From Desulfovibrio sp. (lineage in GTDB: Bacteria > Desulfobacterota > Desulfovibrionia > Desulfovibrionales > Desulfovibrionaceae): a DNA stretch of 64,000 bases. The notes under the pieces are model-generated. The model was not told the origin of the DNA. It ran no database searches and worked only from the letters and a program-made list of their open reading frames with translations. A program made the position numbers and the translations under genes. Numbering within the stretch: the first letter of the stretch is position 1; the number at the start of each line of letters is the position of its first letter. Positions 1,949 through 23,780 of this stretch are shown piece after piece. The stretch spans positions 1-64,000 of the forward strand of contig JACQYS010000016.1 in the NCBI GenBank assembly GCA_016208105.1, written 5' to 3'.

Positions 1949-4336
1949 TCATGGTTTGGCGGTTCCTGCTCCAAGCGGTTCAATCTCAAGCTTCGTGAAA
2001 GCCACAGTGTAGGGGGTAGAATCTGTATCGGACATGGACGAGTTGACATGGTTAATTTTTGAAAACTCAAACACAACTTCGTTGCGACCACCCAACCCGT
2101 CGAACTCAATCTCTCTCTGCTTTTGTCCATCATTCCAAGACTGGCGGGGTATGTCGACCGACTCGTCTAACACCTTGCCATTTATTAACACCCGGCATGA
2201 CTGCCCAGCCATGAAATTCGTAAAGGCGTAACTCAAACGCACTCTTTGTGCCTCAGCCAACGGAAAGGATATTTCTGATCTTCCTCCCACCCCCCATCGC
2301 CAAGCGCGATTCCCATCCACTTCAACCCCATGCAGCCCGTTAAACTCATATTCCGGCGCTAGGCCCTGTGCGTCCATGACGTTCCCATTCACAGGCCGAG
2401 CAGAGATGAGAAGGCTTTTGAACCCTACCGTATCCAAGTTGGAGGTGGGATAACTGGGGGATATCTCCGCGCAGTAGAGTTTAAATCCAATGGTCATCAA
2501 GGAGAATGGTTTAACGCGCCGCAGAGTGACTGTACGTGGGATGTAACCTGCGTCAGGTCCGCCAGCAGTCGATGCCTCAGGGCCAGTATATGACATCAGG
2601 ACCTGCGGTTCCTCATTATCGAACTGGCAGGTCATGACAAAACCATTGCCCCGGCCAAAATTTATATAATTGGCAGTGAGTGCGATGAGTAGATCATTTA
2701 CCGGACCATCATTGGTGAAATGGTATTCAAAAGATGTCCAAGCATTATTAATGGTTGGGATTATGGAGTAGCCCCAATAGGGGCGGACCATAACATTATC
2801 CGCAGCGGCCACATGGCCATAAAAACTCCGAGGAGAGGAGCTGAGGCTCATGCTGAAGGGGGTGATCAAAGGGATTTCCCCCGAATTGTCCACTGACCAG
2901 GTTTCCAATACCCCATCAGGCAAAGGGAATGAGGCCGTTCTATGTGCGACGGGCTCGCCTGGACTAGGCTCTAACTCCATCAACCGTTCCTGATGGTCGA
3001 TGTTTTGATTCTCCAATACACGAAGTGTGATGGGGGAACCATTGGATCGGATATGCTGCTCTTTTAAACCATTTACCAAGCTAAAAGAGTCGGCGTACCA
3101 GTTGATCAGGTCCACCACCGAAGTATCCACGAGGAACCCTCCGTCAGGAGGGAACTGGCTGGCAACAGCTTTTCCGGCACTGCGAAAGAAAGGATTACTG
3201 TCTTGGTAAAACGCACCCTGCTCAGATTTGAAAAAAATAGGAAGCATTATGACAGCCAGTACTATGGCCGCCAAAGGTTTAAAAGAGCCGGGTATCAGGG
3301 CGGCAACACCTGTTCCCACAAGTAAAGCGAGGAGTGGATAAAGTGAGAAGAGATGCCAATAGGTTAGGGAGAAAGATGAGCGTATCAGCAGCATGAAGAT
3401 CAGGCTGGCTCCGAAATAGGATAAACTAAGCCAGAAAGATGCCCGTCGGTTGCGCCAGAGCCAAACCGTTCCCCATATCATTACACCAAGAACAGCCCAA
3501 AAGTGCCATGGATACGTAGCATAGTTCGCAAGTGGAATATTCTCACCGAGAAAAATACCGACAGCTGCACGCGTGTAGTTGGCCACTGCCTCAGGCAGGG
3601 TTGTGGACATACTATGTCCTTGCCGAGAGTACATGCAGTTAGCCAAAAAATAACCCCCAGGAGCCAAAAGCAGAAATACGTTTATGGCTAATGGTTTTAT
3701 TGTTTGGATAATCCCTCTGCTTCGAACCAGGACAACAAGAGTGAAAGCCTGAAAAAAGAGTATTGGAATCAAAGCAGTATACACTGTAGCCAACATCAGA
3801 CCTTGAAGTATGGCAAGCAAATAGAAGGTTTTATCATCTTTATTATCAACAAAACGATGCAAGAGTATAAGTCCGGCCATAAGAAACAGAGAGGCAAAAG
3901 CATACGGTCTGACTTCCCGTGAGATATATACATGCGCTGGGCTGAAAGTAAGATATACTGCAGCAAAAAGCCCTGCCTCCCTGGAAACCCAGAGAGAACC
4001 GACCTTGTACATCATGATGATACCAGCAAGCCCAAACACAACAGAAGGAACACGCAGAGCGAATTCAGATGTCCCCAATTGCAAAACCCCCTTTACCAAA
4101 ATATGGTAAAGGGGGGGGTGCATTTCCTTAGTATTTATCCATTCAATTAAATAACCAACGGACTTGGAAGCCATCACAGGAACTATAGCTTCGTCGAACC
4201 ATAACGCAGGCACCTCAAGATTATATAATCGTATAGCAGCAGCGCAAACAAGCACAACTAAAGCAGAAATAAAATGCTTATTACCTTTCTCATCCATTTC
4301 GAATATAGGCTGGCCCATATGTTTGTCTTTTTGCAA
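1949..4336 (-). CDS. GT-C glycosyltransferase with long two-domain C-terminal extension
   Basis: The first ~410 of 795 residues form a multi-pass GT-C core with LWFDEAIVP (catalytic acidic pair), EMHPPLYH and SREVRPYAF. The extension has two parts. Domain A, about 480-640, contains FYGHV, IPTINN and DTVGFKSL. Domain B, about 660-790, contains GLHGVE, WRWGVGG, RVLINGK, GGRNEVVFEFS and DSTPYTVAFTKLEIEPL. Domain B has the look of a beta-sandwich, possibly sugar-binding. The chosen start is TTG at 4336 because AAAGGA lies about 8 bases upstream; ATG 4318 is the alternative but has no Shine-Dalgarno sequence. The closest relative in the window is the 801-residue protein at 11.1 kb. The likely role is decoration of a surface glycan; donor and acceptor are unknown. 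Confidence 0.85.
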   Translation of the reverse strand: MQKDKHMGQPIFEMDEKGNKHFISALVVLVCAAAIRLYNLEVPALWFDEAIVPVMASKSVGYLIEWINTKEMHPPLYHILVKGVLQLGTSEFALRVPSVVFGLAGIIMMYKVGSLWVSREAGLFAAVYLTFSPAHVYISREVRPYAFASLFLMAGLILLHRFVDNKDDKTFYLLAILQGLMLATVYTALIPILFFQAFTLVVLVRSRGIIQTIKPLAINVFLLLAPGGYFLANCMYSRQGHSMSTTLPEAVANYTRAAVGIFLGENIPLANYATYPWHFWAVLGVMIWGTVWLWRNRRASFWLSLSYFGASLIFMLLIRSSFSLTYWHLFSLYPLLALLVGTGVAALIPGSFKPLAAIVLAVIMLPIFFKSEQGAFYQDSNPFFRSAGKAVASQFPPDGGFLVDTSVVDLINWYADSFSLVNGLKEQHIRSNGSPITLRVLENQNIDHQERLMELEPSPGEPVAHRTASFPLPDGVLETWSVDNSGEIPLITPFSMSLSSSPRSFYGHVAAADNVMVRPYWGYSIIPTINNAWTSFEYHFTNDGPVNDLLIALTANYINFGRGNGFVMTCQFDNEEPQVLMSYTGPEASTAGGPDAGYIPRTVTLRRVKPFSLMTIGFKLYCAEISPSYPTSNLDTVGFKSLLISARPVNGNVMDAQGLAPEYEFNGLHGVEVDGNRAWRWGVGGRSEISFPLAEAQRVRLSYAFTNFMAGQSCRVLINGKVLDESVDIPRQSWNDGQKQREIEFDGLGGRNEVVFEFSKINHVNSSMSDTDSTPYTVAFTKLEIEPLGAGTAKP

Positions 4337-4497
4337 AATCTTATCCTTTAAACAAAAACATCCGTGAGTCCCCTACCAGAGATGGTATTTCTCAGGATCA
4401 ATTTGACCTACCCTCAAAAAATGTATCACTAATTATGAGGGGCTACACTCAATCCTGTGTACAATGAACACTTCCCAAGGGGAGCATTCTGCCCTGA

Positions 4498-4731
4498 GGG
4501 GAAGATTCTAGCAGGAGTTGGTGGCGGACATTGCTCCAGTGAGCCGTGCGGCCTAATCATGTAATACTCTTTGCGCAACACTCCAAGAATAACTGAGCCT
4601 GCCGAAGTTGTAGAAAATCTCACAGTTAAACATCGGACCCGCATTTTTCCGTTGAAGCTTTCGCGGCAGGCGCTCTCCCAGGGGGAACCAAGTTTCATCT
4701 GCAGCATTTTGACCCCAACCCCGGTTAACCA
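4498..4731 (-). pseudogene. IS3-family transposase OrfB, C-terminal remnant
   Basis: The minus strand reads WLTGVGVKMLQ, GSPWES, ESFNGKMRVRCL and EYYMIRPHGSL. These correspond to the GSPWENG...ESFNGKLRDECL...REYNxxRPHSSL block at the end of the IS3-family DDE integrase domain. Only about 75 residues remain and upstream frames are broken. The rest of the 4337-5022 gap (notably 4740-5022) shows no recognisable gene. Confidence 0.75.
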
Positions 4732-6326: not shown

Positions 6327-7494
6327 ATGTCCAAGCGAAGGATGTTTTCTGCGGAGTTCAAGGCTATGGTAGTCCTGGAGGCCTCAAAATTCTTTTTAAC
6401 CCTATCTGAACTAGCGAGCAAGTACGACGTACACCCCACGATGATTGCGTCCTGAAAGCGCCAAGCCAAGGACAGCATGGTATCGGCATTTTCCGGAAAG
6501 GCCGCTGCCATGTAAAAGGTTGGCGAGGCTGAGTTCGCGATCCGCACGCGAAGATCGCCCAACTGACCGTGTTTTTTTGGAGAGAGCCTTCGCTCGGCTG
6601 TGGGTCGGGGGAGGAGGCTTAGGTTGGACGAAACAGTTCACCCAAGACCCAGTATCTCTCGGCAATGCCGGATGCTCGGCTTACCCGGGTCGACGGACAA
6701 CATCACCCCAAGGTAGAGAGCGCCATGTATCTTAAGCTGATGCGTCTCATTGATGCTCAGATTCTGGAGGCGCCCTTTTACGGCTCAAGGCAAATGCTGC
6801 TCTATTTCAAGACTCAGGGCGTCTGTTGGGCGTGGCCGAGTTCGACGTTTGGTGCGTTAGAAGGAGCTGACGGCGATATACCAGACACCACGAACCAGCG
6901 CCTCGCACCCTGCTCACCGGGCTACCTGTATTTCTTGCGAGGGATGCGGATTGATCGACTGAATCAAGTGTGGTGTGCAGACGTGCCGACGAAGTCGGTC
7001 TTGTACGTGGTGGCGATCATGGATTGACACAGCTAGGTTATGTTGTCCTGAGGGCTGCCCAGCACCATGGACACGGATTTCTGTGATTCGGCCTTGGAAG
7101 AGGCTTTGGATCGATTTGGAGCACCAGAAATCTTCAACACCGACCAGAGAGCGAAATTTTGCAACCAGGAATGTACTCAGGCACTTAAAAATGCAGGAGT
7201 GCCACTTCCATGGACGGCAAAGCGCTGGACGGACAACGTTTTCAGCGCACACCTGTGGCACTCGGAGAAGCGGGAATGCCTCTCACTGAGATAGCTTGAG
7301 GCCGGAAGCCAGACGCGGCGTGAGCTTGGGCACTGGGTCCACTTAACAACGAATAGGGACCGCATACCGCCTTTGACAAACAGCGGCCCATGGATGTCTA
7401 AGGGGAATGTTCAGGCTCCCAGAAGGCGGCATGACAATCAACCGGACTTTTGCTTAGAAACGCAGCCAACCTGTTCAACTTATAGGGACCACCT
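6327..7494 (+). pseudogene. Decayed IS3-family element (orfA and orfB remnants)
   Basis: OrfA begins at ATG 6327 with MSKRRMFSAEFKAMVVLEA and LSELASKYDVHPTMIAS, the helix-turn-helix typical of IS3-family OrfA. A TGA replaces the next Trp, and the frame resumes as KRQAKDSM before further stops. OrfB pieces follow in shifting frames: LMRLIDAQILEAPFYGSRQM, LRGMRIDRLNQVWCAD, VVAIMD, then a stop, then ALEEALDRFGAPEIFNTDQ and WTDNVF. CCACCTCA near 7494 may be the right terminus because IS3 elements end in CA, but I could not find the matching left repeat. The element cannot transpose. Confidence 0.85.
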
Positions 7495-8518: not shown

Positions 8519-10177
8519 ATGCGTAGTTATATTACTATATTTATAGTCTTAATCCTGGCTGCCACATTGCGTATTGCAGGGATAACGTGGGGTCTACCTT
8601 CTCCGGAGATGCCTCTCATTCTTCATCCCGATGAAAACCGTACGATTGGCGCCCTCGCAACGGTTAACATCGCCAAAGGGGAACTCACCCCTATCCTCGG
8701 ACACATGGATGGAATGCTAGCCTATTACCTCTGGACCGGTGCATTGGGCGCTGCAAAGGCTGTGGGTTTGATTGACGTTTATGCATATCAAGCCAGCACC
8801 AATGGCGAACAGTACTCCAAAATGGTCTTGGTAAGCAGACTGCTTGTTGTTGCTTTCGACCTCGCAAGTATAGCACTGGTCTATGCCACATTGCGCCGAT
8901 TGCGCGTTCGCCCGATCTTTGCCTCACTTGGCGCTGCAGTATTGGCTGTTGTCCCTATCGAGGTTGTTTATTCTCACTACATGCGTCCCCATATTATATC
9001 TAACTTCTTTGTAACATTAACTTTTTTTGTCACTGCTGTAATGCTGCAGTCATTGCGCATGCGTTGGAGAGCCCTTGCTGGGCTTGTGTGCGGTTTAGCT
9101 ACTGCGACAATGTACCCCGCCATCTTAACCATGATTATCCCACTTTCAGCCATAACGTATGAGGAATTGATTCAAAAGCGAAAAAGCACTCTCTTTTCTA
9201 ATGTAGCTGTGGGAGCAATTTTCAATAGGAACTTGGTAGCGTTCTTTATTGCTTTCTTTGTCGGTTTTTTTGTTGCAGACCCCATGCTATTTCTTGATAT
9301 TCACACTGCACTAGGGCCATTGTCAATCCAATGGAGGGAAGCTGCGAATTTACAACAGACTAGTAGTGGCATTTTGTTTCAGCTTAATAAGATTTTAAGC
9401 TATATTGTGACATTGATCCCACGGGGAGCAGGCCCGTATCTTTGGATATTGCTTTACTTTTCCTTTCTTATGGCCTTTACCTTTAAGCGCCGCCTTGCCA
9501 TTACAGTCGCGCTAAATATATTCGTTCTATGCGTACTTTTTCTTATGGGTGCATTTTATTTCCATCGTGCTGAATTTGTCCGAACGATAATAATGATCTT
9601 CCCTCCTTTGGCCGTACTGACCAGCTTATCTATGGACAACTTTTGGGGGAAATTAAAAACACTTCGGACAAAAATTGTGTTTGTTGGGATTCTATCCTTT
9701 TTTCTTGGTAGTTCGTTACTTTTCGACATTGCTTATGTTCGGGGCATGGCTGCTCCTGACCCAAGATACCAGTTATTAAGATACGTTAGAACGAAATCCC
9801 TTGATACTCAATTACGGATAGGGCTAGTTATTTCGAGTTGGATGAGTGAATATATAGCCGAGCCACTGCGTGTATTGGAAGCAGAAGGGAAGGTTGTTGT
9901 AACCCTCATATTTCCTGACACACCCAAAGAGGTCATAGAAAGGCAAGACCTACTTTGTCTCGTGGGCTTCATGACGGGGGATACAGCAACAAATCAAACG
10001 AAACTACGACAGCTTGAGGCTGAAGGTCGATTCCGGCTGGACCAAAGCTTTCGTAATCAGTTGTCTTTAGGGTGGTTAAGCTTCGACGACGAGGATTTGC
10101 CCCATGACATGGCATATCCTTACCCAAAAATAATCTTGTTACGATCCGCAACCCCTAGGATGTCTCAGGATGGATGA
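8519..10177 (+). CDS. GT-C type membrane glycosyltransferase without C-terminal extension
   Basis: This protein of about 552 residues has many hydrophobic segments. Its first loop carries ILHPDENRTIG, an acidic pair in the position of the WWDE/WFDE motif of the neighbouring enzymes, and SHYMRPH follows further on. It resembles dolichyl-phosphate-mannose transferase-like GT-C proteins but is a different branch from the 506-, 609-, 795- and 801-residue proteins. Its soluble tail is short and shows neither domain A nor domain B. ATG 8519 starts directly at the first membrane segment (MRSYITIFIVLILA); an in-frame ATG at 8444 adds only a non-hydrophobic leader. It overlaps the next gene by 8 bp, so the two are probably translationally coupled. 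Confidence 0.75.
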   Translation: MRSYITIFIVLILAATLRIAGITWGLPSPEMPLILHPDENRTIGALATVNIAKGELTPILGHMDGMLAYYLWTGALGAAKAVGLIDVYAYQASTNGEQYSKMVLVSRLLVVAFDLASIALVYATLRRLRVRPIFASLGAAVLAVVPIEVVYSHYMRPHIISNFFVTLTFFVTAVMLQSLRMRWRALAGLVCGLATATMYPAILTMIIPLSAITYEELIQKRKSTLFSNVAVGAIFNRNLVAFFIAFFVGFFVADPMLFLDIHTALGPLSIQWREAANLQQTSSGILFQLNKILSYIVTLIPRGAGPYLWILLYFSFLMAFTFKRRLAITVALNIFVLCVLFLMGAFYFHRAEFVRTIIMIFPPLAVLTSLSMDNFWGKLKTLRTKIVFVGILSFFLGSSLLFDIAYVRGMAAPDPRYQLLRYVRTKSLDTQLRIGLVISSWMSEYIAEPLRVLEAEGKVVVTLIFPDTPKEVIERQDLLCLVGFMTGDTATNQTKLRQLEAEGRFRLDQSFRNQLSLGWLSFDDEDLPHDMAYPYPKIILLRSATPRMSQDG

Positions 10178-11018
10178 GGATATAGATTTCCGCCTGGCTA
10201 TGGCAGCCCGCCTATGTCAATCCGCCGAATCAATGATCGCAGTTGATTTACGCCATGGAGTACAAGCACTGGACATGGTGATCAAGGAAATGAGTGTGCT
10301 TGCACGATTTTCTGTTGACCATCCCCTGCGCGCGTTGAGACGTTTGGAAGCCCTTCATGCCGCCCTATCCAGAGTCAAGTCAGACAGAAGTGCTGATATA
10401 GTGGCTCATAAAGCTATTTTGGTTATGTGGGAGGTTTTAAACATCGTTCGACAAGCCCGCCGGGATATACGATCGTTCGCGTTTTACTCAACAATGCAGA
10501 AGAAGAATCATGGTGTGGCCTACATACTTGCTACTGGGTTAGTAGTCGCGTTGATTTGGGCTGGAGGAGCATGGATGAAGTGGGATGCGGCCTCTGATAT
10601 TGCGTATGATTTAATGCGCGACGATTTTCCTGATATTTCTTTGGTTGGAATACATGGTATTGAGCACAACGACGCTTTCTCCTGGCGGTGGATTGAAGGT
10701 CCAATCGCTTGCATGACAGTTTCCATGTCTTTGGCGCGGAAAGTGACTTTACGCTTTTCCGCCATGAACCCTATCCCCATGCAGCGTTTAACCATAACCC
10801 TGAATGACCGTCCAGTGGCCGCGTTCGAGGACCTTCCTGCCCAACCTTGGGGGGAATCCACTTTACAAGGCAGAGTGGAACTAGCGCTACAGAAAGGCTC
10901 AAATGTATTGTGTTTCAACTGCCGAGACTATAACCACAACAATACTACATTCGCACCGGACGACCCCACACCCTATGCGTTGGCGCTCACATCTCTAACC
11001 CTAACTGCCCGTCCATAG
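10170..11018 (+). CDS. Membrane-anchored protein with helical N-terminus and domain B
   Basis: I do not recognise this 282-residue protein as a named family. Residues 1-110 look helical and charged (probably cytoplasmic). Residues ~115-135 form one membrane segment (AYILATGLVVALIWAGGAW). The rest, about 150-282, is outside and matches the domain B of the 795- and 801-residue glycosyltransferases: GIHGIEHND, WRWIEG, MQRLTITLNDR, ALQKGSNVLCFN, and DPTPYALALTSLTL. It follows a glycosyltransferase that lacks domain B, with an 8-bp overlap. The inferred role is an accessory or acceptor-binding subunit of that enzyme. Confidence 0.7.
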   Translation: MDEDIDFRLAMAARLCQSAESMIAVDLRHGVQALDMVIKEMSVLARFSVDHPLRALRRLEALHAALSRVKSDRSADIVAHKAILVMWEVLNIVRQARRDIRSFAFYSTMQKKNHGVAYILATGLVVALIWAGGAWMKWDAASDIAYDLMRDDFPDISLVGIHGIEHNDAFSWRWIEGPIACMTVSMSLARKVTLRFSAMNPIPMQRLTITLNDRPVAAFEDLPAQPWGESTLQGRVELALQKGSNVLCFNCRDYNHNNTTFAPDDPTPYALALTSLTLTARP

Positions 11019-11037
11019 CACACTATTAAAGTGTGCT
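11017..11037 (+). other. Stem-loop at the end of the 282-residue gene
   Basis: AGCACACT and AGTGTGCT form a perfect 8-bp stem with a 5-base loop, overlapping the stop codon of the upstream gene. No T-run follows, so a classical terminator is unlikely. It may stabilise the mRNA end or attenuate transcription into the downstream glycosyltransferase. Confidence 0.4.
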
Positions 11038-11126
11038 AATGTCTTGCAACGCACAATTTTGTATGACGTTATGCGTCTGATTGAAGCATTTCAGCTTCAT
11101 ATCAGCGCACAGCTCGGAGTCAACAG

Positions 11127-13532
11127 ATGAATGTAAACAGACATATGTTCCTTTCTGATCGTGATGAAGATGTACAAACAAGAATAATTCTTTGTATAGT
11201 TCTTTCCGTTGCCGCAATCATAAGACTATATCATCTTGATACGTCCCCGCTGTGGTTCGATGAAATCTGGGCTCCATTGGTGCTCAACAAACCGACGGAC
11301 TACATCTTACAGTACATCAATACGTTAGACAATGCTCCACCTTTTTTCTACATAATAACAAAAATTGTTACACTTTTTGGATCCTCAAGTTTTGTTCTTC
11401 GGCTACCCTCTGTAGTTTTTGGCGTACTTGCGGTATACTTGATGTATATAGTTGGCAAGCTGTGGGCTTCTAAAGAAGTTGGTATTTTTTCAGCCATTTC
11501 CCTCGCGATATTCCCAGCCCATATATATATATCAAGAGCTGCAAGACCTTACTCTTTTTGTATGTTCCTGGGATTGCTGTGCTTCATATATTTGAAACCT
11601 TTCATCCAATACAAAAAAAACATAGATTTCTACCGGATCGCCCTGCTTTTGAGTTTATTATTGTTTACGGTTTACACTTCAATTGTGTATATAATTTTTT
11701 TCAATATTGTGGCTCTCATTGTACTTGTACGTGACAGAGGCATCATTCATTCTCTAAGGCCAATTCTCATTGGCACAATCATAACGTTGGCACCAACAAT
11801 TTATTTCCTTGTACACCGTGTATTTTATCCTTCTGCATTTAATCCGCAACTAGCATCATCATTGAATGACTTTGCCATTGCTTTTATAAGGCCGTTTATC
11901 GGGATTTTTTTTCTTAGTCTCGATCCAATCAGGGATGTTACCGCAACCCCCTGGGAATTTTCCTATCTTTGGCATTTCTGGATCACCGTGGCCCTGTTGT
12001 TCGCAGGGCTATTTTGGTTACTACGTTATAACCGACCCTTTTTCCTGCTTGGATTAACTCTGCTGGGAGCGACATTAGCATTCGTAGTACTCACGCGACT
12101 TCCCAACCTCCAATTCTGGCATTTTTTTACTCTTTACCCCATGATTGCTTTGCTGGCTGGCTCAGGCTTAGCGGCGGCATTACCAAAACGCTGGTGGCCT
12201 TGTGTAATGGTCGGGCTGCCTCTTATCTTTCTTTTTGTCTATATTGGCCCATTAGGGTGGCTTTTTTACCAAGTCAACAGCATTCAATTCCAATCGACAA
12301 CACCTGAGGTCGGCAAAGCAATCGCATCGTTGGCATTTGATGATGGCGGAATAATGGTGGACGTTGCAAATGAGCCTATTTACAACTGGTATGCTGATCA
12401 GTTCAGCCTCATTAACCGTCTTAAATTGCAACGGTTCGATTCAGATAGCGGCAAAATTACTCTGAACGTAATCCAGAACTCACTAGATGAAAAAAGTTTC
12501 AATTTTTTTTCACGAGGATCAAATATACAAATAGCAAACACGCATATTGTTTCTGTTACGCCAATAGGAACGCATAGCATTTTCAAATGGACCGTGGGTA
12601 ATTCCGGTGTTATTCCATTAAAATTTGGGAAAAATGTCACACTTGATGCTAACCCTCAAGATTTCTATGGTCATGTCCATTCAGCAGACAAGGTAATGGT
12701 AGACCCCGGCCATACCACCTTGGCCATCCCAACGGTCTATGACACTTGGACCCGTTTTGAATATTCCTTCAACAACGTTGAAACATTCAAAGATCTACTG
12801 ATAAATTTATCAGCGCATTATGTAAATTCTGGCAATGGAAACTATTTTATTATGACCTACACCTTCGATGAAGAAGAAGAGCAAGTATTATTTTCTTCTG
12901 TAGGCCCAGAGCTTGGTGCCATTGAAAATATCGTGCGGCATGACCTCAGCTTTCACCGCTATAAGCCATTTACTAGATTAACGCTCCACTTTAACATATA
13001 TTGCGCTCAAAAAACGCCTAGCCTTCTTCTTAGCGACCTGAGGACTGTGGGATTTAGAAAACTAGCATTTCTGGCTAAGCCTGTTAATGGAAACGTTATG
13101 AACCCCGACACTTTAGCACCGGAATACGAGTTAGAGGGATTACGAGGCGTGGAAAGAGATAATGACCGAACGTGGCGGTGGGGTGTTGACGGTAAGACAT
13201 CAGTGTCATTCCCCCTATTTGGAGCACAACGGGTACGTCTTCGCTATGCTGTGAGAAATTTTTTACCTGAACAATCTTGTCGGGTGACAATTAATGGAAA
13301 GCACCTGGAGATGATTAAAGACATGCCCATACAGAGTTGGACCTCCATTCCGATATCACGAGAACTTGAATTTGATGCACCTGACGGTCGAAACATCATT
13401 ACATTTGAATTCTCAAAAATTAACCACATAAATGCATCTATGTCTGACACAGACACAACACCCTATACAACGGCTTTCAGCACACTTGAAATCGAACCTC
13501 TCGGTACTGAGATAATACAGCCAGAGCTTTAA
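11127..13532 (+). CDS. GT-C glycosyltransferase with long two-domain C-terminal extension
   Basis: This 801-residue protein has a membrane core (about 1-400) with LWFDEIWAP and ISRAARPYSF. The usual MHPP motif is NAPPFFY here. Domain A (about 490-640) has FYGHVHSADKVMV, IPTVYD and TVGFRKL. Domain B (about 660-795) has GLRGVE, WRWGVDG, RVTINGK, DGRNIITFEFSKINH and TTPYTTAFSTLEIEPL. It is a clear paralogue of the 795-residue protein on the opposite strand at 1.9-4.3 kb, along the full length. ATG 11127 has CGGAG upstream. Many runs of A and T in the DNA contrast with the GC-rich flank beyond the tRNA. It probably transfers a sugar to a surface glycan; specificity unknown. Confidence 0.85.
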   Translation: MNVNRHMFLSDRDEDVQTRIILCIVLSVAAIIRLYHLDTSPLWFDEIWAPLVLNKPTDYILQYINTLDNAPPFFYIITKIVTLFGSSSFVLRLPSVVFGVLAVYLMYIVGKLWASKEVGIFSAISLAIFPAHIYISRAARPYSFCMFLGLLCFIYLKPFIQYKKNIDFYRIALLLSLLLFTVYTSIVYIIFFNIVALIVLVRDRGIIHSLRPILIGTIITLAPTIYFLVHRVFYPSAFNPQLASSLNDFAIAFIRPFIGIFFLSLDPIRDVTATPWEFSYLWHFWITVALLFAGLFWLLRYNRPFFLLGLTLLGATLAFVVLTRLPNLQFWHFFTLYPMIALLAGSGLAAALPKRWWPCVMVGLPLIFLFVYIGPLGWLFYQVNSIQFQSTTPEVGKAIASLAFDDGGIMVDVANEPIYNWYADQFSLINRLKLQRFDSDSGKITLNVIQNSLDEKSFNFFSRGSNIQIANTHIVSVTPIGTHSIFKWTVGNSGVIPLKFGKNVTLDANPQDFYGHVHSADKVMVDPGHTTLAIPTVYDTWTRFEYSFNNVETFKDLLINLSAHYVNSGNGNYFIMTYTFDEEEEQVLFSSVGPELGAIENIVRHDLSFHRYKPFTRLTLHFNIYCAQKTPSLLLSDLRTVGFRKLAFLAKPVNGNVMNPDTLAPEYELEGLRGVERDNDRTWRWGVDGKTSVSFPLFGAQRVRLRYAVRNFLPEQSCRVTINGKHLEMIKDMPIQSWTSIPISRELEFDAPDGRNIITFEFSKINHINASMSDTDTTPYTTAFSTLEIEPLGTEIIQPEL

Positions 13533-13818: not shown

Positions 13819-13905
13819 TGGTACCGGGAGGGGGACTCGAACCCCCAAGGCCTTGCGACCGGCGGATTTTGAGTCCGCTGCGTCTACCAATTCCGCCATC
13901 CCGGC
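13819..13905 (-). tRNA. tRNA-Leu (anticodon CAA)
   Basis: The minus strand begins GCCGGGATGGCGGAATTGG and ends TCCCGGTACCA. The acceptor stem pairs GCCGGGA with TCCCGGT (first pair G-U, as in other leucine tRNAs), and CCA is encoded. The anticodon stem is GCGGA/TCCGC with loop CTCAAAA, giving anticodon CAA for UUG codons. The long variable arm is typical of class II tRNAs. Its 3' portion is duplicated at 1841-1888. Confidence 0.95.
13838..13873 (-). repeat. Direct-repeat partner within tRNA-Leu (putative att site)
   Basis: These 36 bases, from anticodon loop to T-loop, are identical to 1853-1888 in the same orientation. Together the two copies bracket about 12 kb and define the putative integration event. 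Confidence 0.8.
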
Positions 13906-21463: not shown

Positions 21464-21961
21464 TTACTTTTCTAAACACGACAAGGCTAACTTTGAAAAC
21501 TCTACCCGCTTGCGCCCAAGTACATACTCGTGTTCGGGTCCTGTTTTCTCTGAGTTCAGATATGCAATCTTTAAGATATTGATGCCAGGCCTGAGACTCA
21601 CCACGTAAGAATCATCGACACACTCACCGGACTTCTGGGCTGAATCGAACCGATAGGTATGAACATCAATAAAATTCATGGAAATCCCTACCATTTGTCC
21701 AGGAACACGATTAATGAATGAGACAGCTAAATTTACTTTAGCATGCTTCTTTGATTCAAGAACTATCAACGATATGGGAAATTCTCCCGTGCGAACAAGC
21801 TTTGTTTCATTGTTTAGTAGTTTTATATCACCAAAACCATAATCGTGGATCACAGGGTTCGAACTGATATTTAGCAGAATATCGACATTTAAAGCACATC
21901 TGTCACCGTAGCATGAACTGGAAAAAAGAACAAATGCCACCAGGAACAATTTATTTATCAC
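21464..21961 (-). CDS. Secreted protein resembling glycosyltransferase domain B
   Basis: This 165-residue protein has a hydrophobic leader (INKLFLVAFVLFSSSCYG) and therefore lies outside the inner membrane. The leader is not a clear lipobox. The remainder follows the domain B pattern of the 795- and 801-residue glycosyltransferases: FINRVPGQMVGISMNF aligns with FxNFxxGQSCRVLING, and LRPGINILKIAYLN with GGRNEVVFEFSKIN. The start is probably GTG 21961, which overlaps the upstream glycosyltransferase by 11 bp and has GGCGGG before it; TTG 21976 is the alternative. The inferred role is a detached accessory domain of the 609-residue enzyme. Similarity is by eye and modest. Confidence 0.55.
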   Translation of the reverse strand: MINKLFLVAFVLFSSSCYGDRCALNVDILLNISSNPVIHDYGFGDIKLLNNETKLVRTGEFPISLIVLESKKHAKVNLAVSFINRVPGQMVGISMNFIDVHTYRFDSAQKSGECVDDSYVVSLRPGINILKIAYLNSEKTGPEHEYVLGRKRVEFSKLALSCLEK

Positions 21962-23780
21962 TTCTATACCCGCCAAAATACAGCGTCATGTCTTTTACAC
22001 ACACAGTCTGGAGATTTCCACCTGGGAATCGAGGAGAATCTTTGGCGCATTCCATCTCAACCATGATATCCAACGTGGAAAATGAACGGTCAAACACCAG
22101 ATACAAAGGGACTACCTCTTTATAAGCATCATACCCTGCAGAGTACAGCAGTTTTTGTTCTCCACTATCCACTTTCGAATACACATTCAGCCTGCTCCCC
22201 CGACTTTTCACTTCATATCGTAACAATACGCAGACGATATATGGATATCTTTCATGAGAAGGTTGTACCCTGTATTCGAAAAACGCCTTGCCCTCATTGA
22301 TAGTTGGAATAACCCTGCTGCCAGATGAGACATCCAGCTGAACATACTCAGACATTCTTACTGTTGAATAGAAACCTACAGGATCAAGCTTAATCTTTAT
22401 TGTTTCCGGATATCCGAAAAGATCAATAACGGGATGTCGCTTCAGACGAACTCTCGACATGCCCCCTTCAAGAAGCTCAACGCGTTCACCACCAAAAGCA
22501 CGATCAGCACACCCCTTGTCACCACATATAACATCCAAGGAATCGCTATCGCTTGACACCGCTTGCCTCAAATAACCAGCTCGCTTTTCCTGAGGGATAT
22601 ATCTTTCGACAGCATGAAATTGCATCTGGTCACCAACAACAAACGAAAAGTTTTTTGTAAAAAGTGTGGACAGTACCTGTTCATACTGTTTTCCACCTTC
22701 ACTTTCTGAAGAGTATAGTTGAACCCTTTCTTTGTATACCCGGGACACCCCCAATACGATTATTAAGCACGCGACGACATTCACCAACATCCTTCTTGAC
22801 CTTAAAACAGAATCAATACAAACCGCACACACACAACTAAAAAAAACAATAAAGTACGAGTAATGCCATGGGTTAGAATAAGAGGAATAACGTGCTGCAA
22901 CAAGAATAAATACAGGGATCAATGCATACATAGAGAAAAATATCGCTGCATCTTTATTTGTGCGAAATAAAACACAAATCCCACAAAACAACAGGCAAGC
23001 AGCAGCCAGTGAAAAAGCGTCTACACCATCACTCCATGAAGACACCAAACAAAGATTCTTGAGGACATTCAGCATGGTCCCCATGACTGTACCTGGAGAA
23101 CCAGCTTCGGACATCCGAAAAAACAACAGAACGAGCGCAAGAATCCATGCGACAACAACAGATATGGAATTCCATTTGTATTTTTTAACTAATGCAGTTG
23201 AGCATCTCCAATCATAAGCCATAAAAATCATCATGGCGCACAGAACAAGAATTGCAGAATAGTGTATCAAGGGGAGAACACTTATGGATAGCAAAAACAC
23301 TGATCCACGCTCCCCATACTTCCTAAAGGAGAAATAACCGTAAGTTGCCAGACAATAGAGCAGCACGAGTAGGCTATACGGTCGAACCTGACGGGACAAT
23401 GATATAAAAAGCATATTGCTCGCAAGCAATGCCGCAGAGAGTAACCCCACATTTCCTGAACAAATAACGCTTCCGACACGATACATCATATAAATGCCAA
23501 TCATTGCACACAACACTGAAAACGTTCTCAGGAAACCATCCGAGCTAGATATAATAGACCATAGTTTGATGATCAAATAAAATCCAGGAGGATGAAAGTC
23601 TGTGACCAAAGATCGTTCAATAATGTAACCTAAAGGGAATCGAGAAGTCAGAGGGACAAGAATTTCATCAAGCCACAAAGGTTTTAATCCGATCTGATAA
23701 AATGTTATACACCCAAATATAAAAAATATTAGAAATAATACAATCTTGCTGGATGGATCATGGTCTTCTTTGGTAATCAT
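21951..23780 (-). CDS. GT-C membrane glycosyltransferase with domain A only
   Basis: This 609-residue protein has a multi-pass GT-C core with LWLDEILVP (catalytic acidic pair), DFHPPGFYL and SRQVRPYSLL. Residues about 455-605 form domain A (GFYSTVRM, RVIPTINEG, FFEYRV, LQTVCVKDM). Domain B is missing from the chain, but the next gene appears to encode it separately. The gene is AT-rich compared with mutL before it and hldD after it, a sign of transfer. It sits 54 bp downstream of hldD on the same strand, consistent with lipopolysaccharide decoration. Confidence 0.85.
   Translation of the reverse strand: MITKEDHDPSSKIVLFLIFFIFGCITFYQIGLKPLWLDEILVPLTSRFPLGYIIERSLVTDFHPPGFYLIIKLWSIISSSDGFLRTFSVLCAMIGIYMMYRVGSVICSGNVGLLSAALLASNMLFISLSRQVRPYSLLVLLYCLATYGYFSFRKYGERGSVFLLSISVLPLIHYSAILVLCAMMIFMAYDWRCSTALVKKYKWNSISVVVAWILALVLLFFRMSEAGSPGTVMGTMLNVLKNLCLVSSWSDGVDAFSLAAACLLFCGICVLFRTNKDAAIFFSMYALIPVFILVAARYSSYSNPWHYSYFIVFFSCVCAVCIDSVLRSRRMLVNVVACLIIVLGVSRVYKERVQLYSSESEGGKQYEQVLSTLFTKNFSFVVGDQMQFHAVERYIPQEKRAGYLRQAVSSDSDSLDVICGDKGCADRAFGGERVELLEGGMSRVRLKRHPVIDLFGYPETIKIKLDPVGFYSTVRMSEYVQLDVSSGSRVIPTINEGKAFFEYRVQPSHERYPYIVCVLLRYEVKSRGSRLNVYSKVDSGEQKLLYSAGYDAYKEVVPLYLVFDRSFSTLDIMVEMECAKDSPRFPGGNLQTVCVKDMTLYFGGYRSDK

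Follow-up and report, generated by a model that had tools for sequence, protein, structure and literature searches.

Why should a bacterium carry the same domain both as the tail of some of its membrane glycosyltransferases and as a separate protein encoded next to others? The question is raised by the first 64,000 nucleotides of contig C16 (JACQYS010000016.1) of a Desulfovibrio sp. genome of 4.18 Mb (GCA_016208105.1), a stretch hereafter called the window. Two glycosyltransferases (GTs) of the GT-C type encoded there, GT795 and GT801 (enzymes are named from their length in residues), end in the domain in question, module B. A preliminary description of this DNA had proposed that this tail recurs in a protein of 282 residues encoded after GT552, that a similar pattern is found in a protein of 165 residues encoded after GT609, and that the module works with the enzyme. 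Our analysis indicates that module B is most likely a mobile module that would bind the acceptor glycan and serve several classes of envelope-glycan-modifying enzymes.

Module B in the window

All the genes were found at the positions and with the sizes previously given (Table 1). In BLASTP comparisons, residues 154-278 of the 282-residue protein align with the GT801 tail (E 1.5e-17) and residues 154-282 with the GT795 tail (E 3.5e-16), which bears out the proposed recurrence. Two profiles of module B were built, the first from nine members of the own genome and the second from 55 members. For the window, its three rows were removed from the latter, and the profile of the 52 remaining, non-window members was run against the 496 open reading frames (ORFs) of at least 40 residues, with E-values scaled to 4,000 sequences. 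Exactly four ORFs matched, namely those of the 282-residue protein, GT795 and GT801 (E-values in Table 1) and that of the 165-residue protein (6.5e-7, or 7e-7 in its longer form of 170 residues). GT609, GT552 and a further enzyme, GT506, gave no match with this profile, and 2,000 shuffled versions of the 282- and 165-residue proteins reached an E-value of 0.58 at best. The window thus holds the two fused and two split copies that had been claimed and no others, and the module is indeed absent from GT552 and GT609. In the 282-residue protein the motifs put forward for it are partly degenerate (GIHGIE, SWRWIEGP, TLNDRP, GSNVLCFNC and TPYALALTSLTL).

BLASTP found no link from the 165-residue protein to the other three window members, phmmer linked it solely and weakly to the 282-residue protein, and a profile search of the whole own genome matched it at 5.7e-4. 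Despite the blank BLASTP result, chance resemblance is ruled out by the profile tests and by a profile-profile comparison with the module B family (probability 97.6, E 4.4e-12). A homologue in genome G001, of the same genus (E 4.2e-16), comes after a glycosyltransferase 35% identical to GT609 over 608 residues. Judged from its sequence, the 165-residue protein is a divergent member of the family, beyond mere resemblance.

Five window enzymes pass the cut-off of 26.1 bits for the Pfam family PMT_2 (PF13231): GT795 (51.1), GT801 (38.1), GT609 (41.2), GT506 (52.8) and GT552 (26.5). GT795 and GT801 are 43% identical, and in the predicted model of GT801 (pLDDT 85.9, pTM 0.79) a second domain, domain A, precedes module B. 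The 282-residue protein, whose gene overlaps that of its upstream partner GT552 by 8 bp, comprises a helical N-terminal part (about residues 1-110), a single transmembrane (TM) helix (about 114-140) and then module B. A basic stretch ahead of the helix (RRDIRSF...QKKN) suggests an N-inside topology, in which the helical part is probably cytoplasmic and module B would be periplasmic. The 165-residue protein has a hydrophobic N-terminus followed by module B at about residues 26-135, and its gene overlaps the end of the GT609 gene. The two pairs are of different types, the one with domain A on the enzyme (GT609) and the other without it (GT552). A further copy of domain A is encoded by a gene truncated at the edge of contig C5 (L027:152-1003).

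Table 1. Coordinates of module B genes, domains and neighbouring features in the window, and of related proteins on Deinococcus plasmids
Feature	Position	Strand	Evidence
GT795, 795-residue GT-C glycosyltransferase with fused domains A and B	1949..4336	-	PMT_2, E 2.3e-13
Module B in GT795, residues 653-787	1976..2380	-	52-member profile, E 2.5e-37
Short ORFs between GT genes, presumably IS3-type transposase remnants	4429-4707; 6665-7294		
GT552, 552-residue GT-C glycosyltransferase without module B and without middle domain A	8519..10177	+	PMT_2, E 8.3e-6
282-residue split module B protein	10170..11018	+	gene call, BLASTP
Module B in the 282-residue protein, residues 144-281	10599..11012	+	52-member profile, E 8.5e-39
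GT801, 801-residue GT-C glycosyltransferase with fused domains A and B	11127..13532	+	PMT_2, E 2.2e-9
Domain A in GT801, residues about 489-651, beta-rich, between membrane part and module B	12591..13079	+	model strands; structural alignments end at 651
Module B in GT801, residues 656-791	13092..13499	+	52-member profile, E 1.1e-33
tRNA-Leu	13819-13905		
165-residue split module B protein (longer form 170 residues)	21464..21961 (170-residue form to 21976)	-	profile, homologue, profile-profile
GT609, 609-residue GT-C glycosyltransferase with domain A, without module B	21951..23780	-	PMT_2, E 2.6e-10
Deinococcus AlgX-like proteins with internal module B, annotated hypothetical	L164:5251-6912; L165:4281-5954; L166:4323-5981		

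Fold and members of the family

A beta-sandwich had been expected for the module, in agreement with the predicted fold, a jelly-roll whose best matches are carbohydrate-binding modules (CBMs) of the CBM35/CBM6 type. Profile searches against known structures point to the same superfamily (5x7o, 1.1e-7; 2w3j, 1.3e-4), so that a CBM35/CBM6-like fold is supported by both profile and model; the Foldseek matches also include BcsB. Module B differs from these modules in that it sits on envelope-glycan-modifying enzymes and in that Pfam CBM_35 (PF16990) gives no clear family match: just four of the 55 members match it, with a best E-value of 0.0027, and nine Pfam-scanned proteins, the 282-residue one included, do not match it at E-values up to 1. 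The nearest Pfam lead to the RWT-type actinobacterial tails named in the preliminary description, DUF7024 (PF22895), is matched weakly by one member of the 55 (E 4.6e-4). It has no match in the own genome and any match in only two of 21 genomes, at neither of the two at a module B place; it rises above its cut-off at a single place in the 21, which is without module B. The Pfam scan returned nothing for the 282-residue protein, the 170-residue protein, the tails of the window GT-C enzymes or domain A of the window. In terms of sequence, module B is an uncharacterised, CBM-like family of its own, with one invariant W and with E, G, Q, G, N and D conserved almost throughout.

The own genome contains ten members, six of them fused GT-C tails (the two of the window and L021-L024) and four split proteins. 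Besides the two split proteins of the window, the latter are a protein of 181 residues (L026), which is divergent from a GT gene and whose N-terminus reads as lipobox-like, and a TM-anchored protein of 338 residues (L028), encoded 4 bp after the sole GT87 match of this genome. In a sample of the family Desulfovibrionaceae the module was found in 25 of 199 genomes, the own one included, with at least 91 matches, a lower bound because at most 20 candidates were scored per genome. Frames of at least 740 codons account for 46 of these matches, of which 30 were fetched. The other 45, in shorter frames, correspond to 44 proteins, one with two tandem copies, all of which were read in their context: 32 are split proteins, five are AT3 fusions, one is a fusion to a GDSL/SGNH hydrolase and one to GT87. 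The remaining five are three larger proteins without Pfam match (L124, L170 and L169, the last with 12 hydrophobic segments), an apparently frameshifted GT-C gene (L126) and L134, discussed below. Apart from the own genome, four of 394 genomes in the phylum-wide sample had matches at 1e-5. Searched phages gave no match.

The stretches bearing the genes for the 795-, 552-, 282-, 801-, 609- and 165-residue proteins have a GC content of 39-51%, against 55-66% at 14-21 and 24-26 kb. This low GC, the nearby tRNA-Leu gene and the IS3-like frames suggest a mobile glycan island. Repeated fusion and fission of the module was also considered. A tree of the 55 modules needs five changes between the fused and the split state, but its well-supported branches force just one, and this claim was dropped.

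Neighbours and fusion partners

Among the 32 split genes, 19 adjoin a GT-C gene, eight stand in an O-acyltransferase context, three adjoin a multi-TM gene that Pfam cannot classify, and two have no such neighbour (L114, after a cysteinyl-tRNA synthetase gene, and L121, a fragment). The 19 GT-C neighbours are 18 PMT-type enzymes and one GT87, three of them (L108, L116, L127) under the Pfam cut-off. PMT_2 genes number 16 in the own genome and 3-18 in 16 relatives. At an assumed density of roughly one gene per kilobase, fewer than 1% of genes picked at random would adjoin one of them; the split genes lie beside GT-C genes far above chance. Moreover, in 26 of the 32 cases an enzyme or multi-TM gene of the same orientation touches or overlaps the split gene within 5 bp, with an overlap of 4-8 bp in 14 cases; three form divergent pairs. 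In GC-rich loci, gene calls favoured the module-bearing frames and starts were set mechanically, so that overlaps such as that of 295 bp at L123, like those of the three divergent pairs, come out too large.

Module B is absent from all 19 GT-C neighbours, yet 10 of the 16 PMT_2 genes of the own genome are also without it. Domain A is present in 10 of the 19, so that enzyme and split partner together rebuild in two genes the fused layout of GT795 and GT801.

Two split genes annotated as hypothetical lie on plasmid pDMC1 of Solidesulfovibrio magneticus RS-1 (NC_012797.1; L167:3352-7746), where they flank a GT-C gene and an 11-TM gene, with sugar-nucleotide genes alongside. The protein with two tandem copies (L113:4853-5911, G006:C21; 352 residues) is encoded directly before an 805-residue protein with 16 TM segments by simple hydropathy and without Pfam match.

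The eight O-acyltransferase contexts comprise six clusters with an MBOAT gene confirmed by Pfam in each (L102, L105, L107, L109, L110, L111), one split gene by a GDSL/SGNH-like gene below the cut-off (L115) and one by an ALGX gene (L119). In the six MBOAT loci the split protein is laid out like the 282-residue protein, with an N-terminal part, one TM helix and module B. Its gene is touched by that of a single-TM protein of about 390-460 residues, which from its GSSR and D-x-x-H motifs reads as SGNH-like; Pfam gave no match for it in five of the six loci and just 0.019 (DUF1574) in L109. A profile search gave no match between the helical N-terminal half of the 282-residue protein and those of the MBOAT-type proteins, and common ancestry of these parts is not demonstrable.

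Among the fusions, module B is the C-terminal tail of AT3 (OafA-type) acyltransferases in five loci (L128, L130, L131, L132, L133) from relatives within the genus of the window and from a second genus, presumably Solidesulfovibrio; it is fused to a GDSL/SGNH hydrolase in L125 and to GT87 in L168:854-2929 (G190:C180), a protein of 691 residues with GT87 at 154-377 and module B at 555-689. The fused state thus exists for PMT_2, GT87 and GDSL/SGNH enzymes. GT87 is seen in both states, fused in L168 and as a split pair in the own genome.

Outside the phylum, tblastn detected module B on three Deinococcus plasmids. All three show the same gene row, consisting of MBOAT, an ALGX-type protein, AlgF and a protein of about 555 residues with module B, the AlgF genes and the MBOAT genes of two plasmids being assigned by annotation. 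In the 555-residue proteins ALGX is matched in two stretches (2.2e-43, 3.2e-36 and 5.3e-40), with module B between them (4e-28, 8e-27 and 7e-33). One plasmid has a second place of match. A single MBOAT-type split protein used as query matched nothing on plasmids.

Altogether, module B is not tied to GT-C enzymes, as it occurs in GT-C, GT87, AT3, MBOAT/SGNH and AlgX-like contexts. The preliminary description is borne out as to the fused and split forms and the coupling to GT-C genes (19 of 32), but not as to a tie to GT-C enzymes. The preliminary description had also held that solo genes not co-occurring with GT-C enzymes would speak against it: 19 of the 32 do co-occur, but eight stand with O-acyltransferases. 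Neither the fusion logic nor this co-occurrence selects GT-C alone, and an accessory specific for GT-C is ruled out by these eight copies and the five AT3 fusions.

Possible role of module B

Enzymes of the PMT_2/GT-C kind take the sugar that they transfer from a lipid phosphate donor at the outer face of the inner membrane, and the window enzymes would do likewise. We consider it rather probable that module B is a CBM-like beta-sandwich which, outside the inner membrane, binds the polysaccharide under decoration and holds it at the outward active site of the membrane enzyme. In GT795 and GT801, it would act in cis as the last of two periplasmic beta-rich domains. In the pairs of GT552 with the 282-residue protein and of GT609 with the 165-residue protein, we infer that the overlapping gene supplies a partner, either anchored in the membrane or exported, which would do the same job in trans; in either form, the module would keep the acceptor, presumably an envelope polysaccharide, near the active site. 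In related bacteria the same module would be used with O-acyltransferases (AT3, MBOAT with SGNH-like proteins, AlgX-like proteins), which argues that its target is the acceptor glycan rather than the donor or a particular kind of enzyme. Since the acceptor is what PMT_2, GT87, AT3, MBOAT/SGNH and AlgX-like enzymes have in common, acceptor binding is preferred over donor handling or enzyme-specific docking.

CBM tails have precedents. According to one report, the tails of EmbC and AftD contact the acceptor, and the CBM tail of Citrobacter youngae ORF12 (GT136) binds undecorated lipopolysaccharide, the role of this CBM being left open there (PMC11127046). Like the mycobacterial EmbA/B/C and AftD and like ORF12, the fused window enzymes combine a GT-C membrane part with a periplasmic beta-sandwich tail. 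However, alignments with Emb/AftD have root-mean-square deviations of 15-18 Å and so give no superposition of the domain arrangement; the module B enzymes belong to PMT_2 in Pfam, and module B forms a sequence family of its own, of which split copies exist. The CBM of ORF12 was dispensable for activity under the conditions tested, according to the same report. Module B also occurs near the N-terminus of a radical-SAM/SPASM protein without TM helix (L134:3804-5453, G013:C3), which does not suit a role in the envelope.

The dispensable CBM of ORF12 would suit another explanation, which we judge unlikely, namely that module B serves docking or assembly and binds protein (periplasmic loops of its own enzyme, a flippase or an export channel), its CBM-like fold being an inherited scaffold as in the organizing subunits of synthase complexes. 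BcsB, one of the structural matches, is such a structural subunit, and TM-anchored and tandem versions such as L113 suit a scaffold. On the other hand, enzymes as unrelated as PMT_2, GT87, AT3, GDSL/SGNH and AlgX-like proteins plausibly have a glycan acceptor in common rather than a protein surface. It is more doubtful still that the split genes are merely co-located in glycan clusters and encode independent soluble or surface lectins. The low-GC setting of the window genes, one of which adjoins a tRNA gene, does resemble that of gathered glycan islands, and the divergent pairs and the gene beside cysteinyl-tRNA synthetase would fit; the same-strand contacts of 26 of the 32 genes, the lack of a fused module in all 19 GT-C neighbours and the fused states described above speak against it. 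Finally, it is very improbable that the split pairs are decay products of fused enzymes with little function left, for although GT609 and the 165-residue protein, the most divergent window member, are laid out like a fissioned GT795 or GT801, this pair is retained in a second species (35% identity for the GT, 26-28% for the partner), simple hydropathy gives 30 of the 32 split proteins one or more hydrophobic segments of their own, and split pairs of a similar kind are seen again in further genomes (L100, L103, L104; L116, L118, L129; L026, L099, L101).

A parallel to the split form can be drawn with separate CBM-like subunits of glycan machines, which are already known. BcsB is a periplasmic, membrane-anchored subunit of cellulose synthase with CBM-like domains beside a membrane glycosyltransferase, and in this it resembles the split proteins; unlike them, it is the partner of the processive synthase BcsA and forms a crown, and its link to module B is structural, without demonstrated sequence relation. 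The alginate O-acetylation system AlgI-AlgJ-AlgF-AlgX also joins MBOAT, SGNH and a glycan-binding part, and it is approached both by the Deinococcus AlgX-like proteins, which contain module B, and by the Desulfovibrionaceae MBOAT clusters, which carry a split module B gene. The CBM is C-terminal in AlgX (PMC4148444), whereas module B lies between the two ALGX stretches in Deinococcus and is a separate TM-anchored protein in the six MBOAT loci. AT3-SGNH fusions are shown in a review of AT3 proteins, for which the literature search counted no occurrence of 'carbohydrate-binding' (PMC9558356).

The preliminary description knew of no two-gene version. None was found for module B, and no description of its family, its split form or its sharing across enzyme classes, in the part of the literature covered, but BcsB and the published CBM tail of a GT-C enzyme narrow this claim. 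GT-C enzymes that end in a CBM are already known (EmbC, AftD, ORF12/GT136); what looks new is an uncharacterised family that also occurs split and is shared by several enzyme classes.

Little is understood of how enzymes that modify the envelope select their glycan. A tentative and bolder hypothesis would be that module B is an exchangeable acceptor-recognition part which, fused or in trans, directs enzymes of glycosylation (PMT_2, GT87) and of O-acylation (AT3, MBOAT/SGNH, AlgX-like) to the same envelope polysaccharide in a given cell, decoration patterns evolving by swapping, fusing and splitting of the module rather than by change of the enzyme. The family offers natural experiments in which one recognition part goes with different chemistries, or one chemistry with that part placed in cis or in trans. 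Its sequence is, in addition, a means of identifying the partners of small genes annotated 'hypothetical protein' near GT-C and MBOAT genes.

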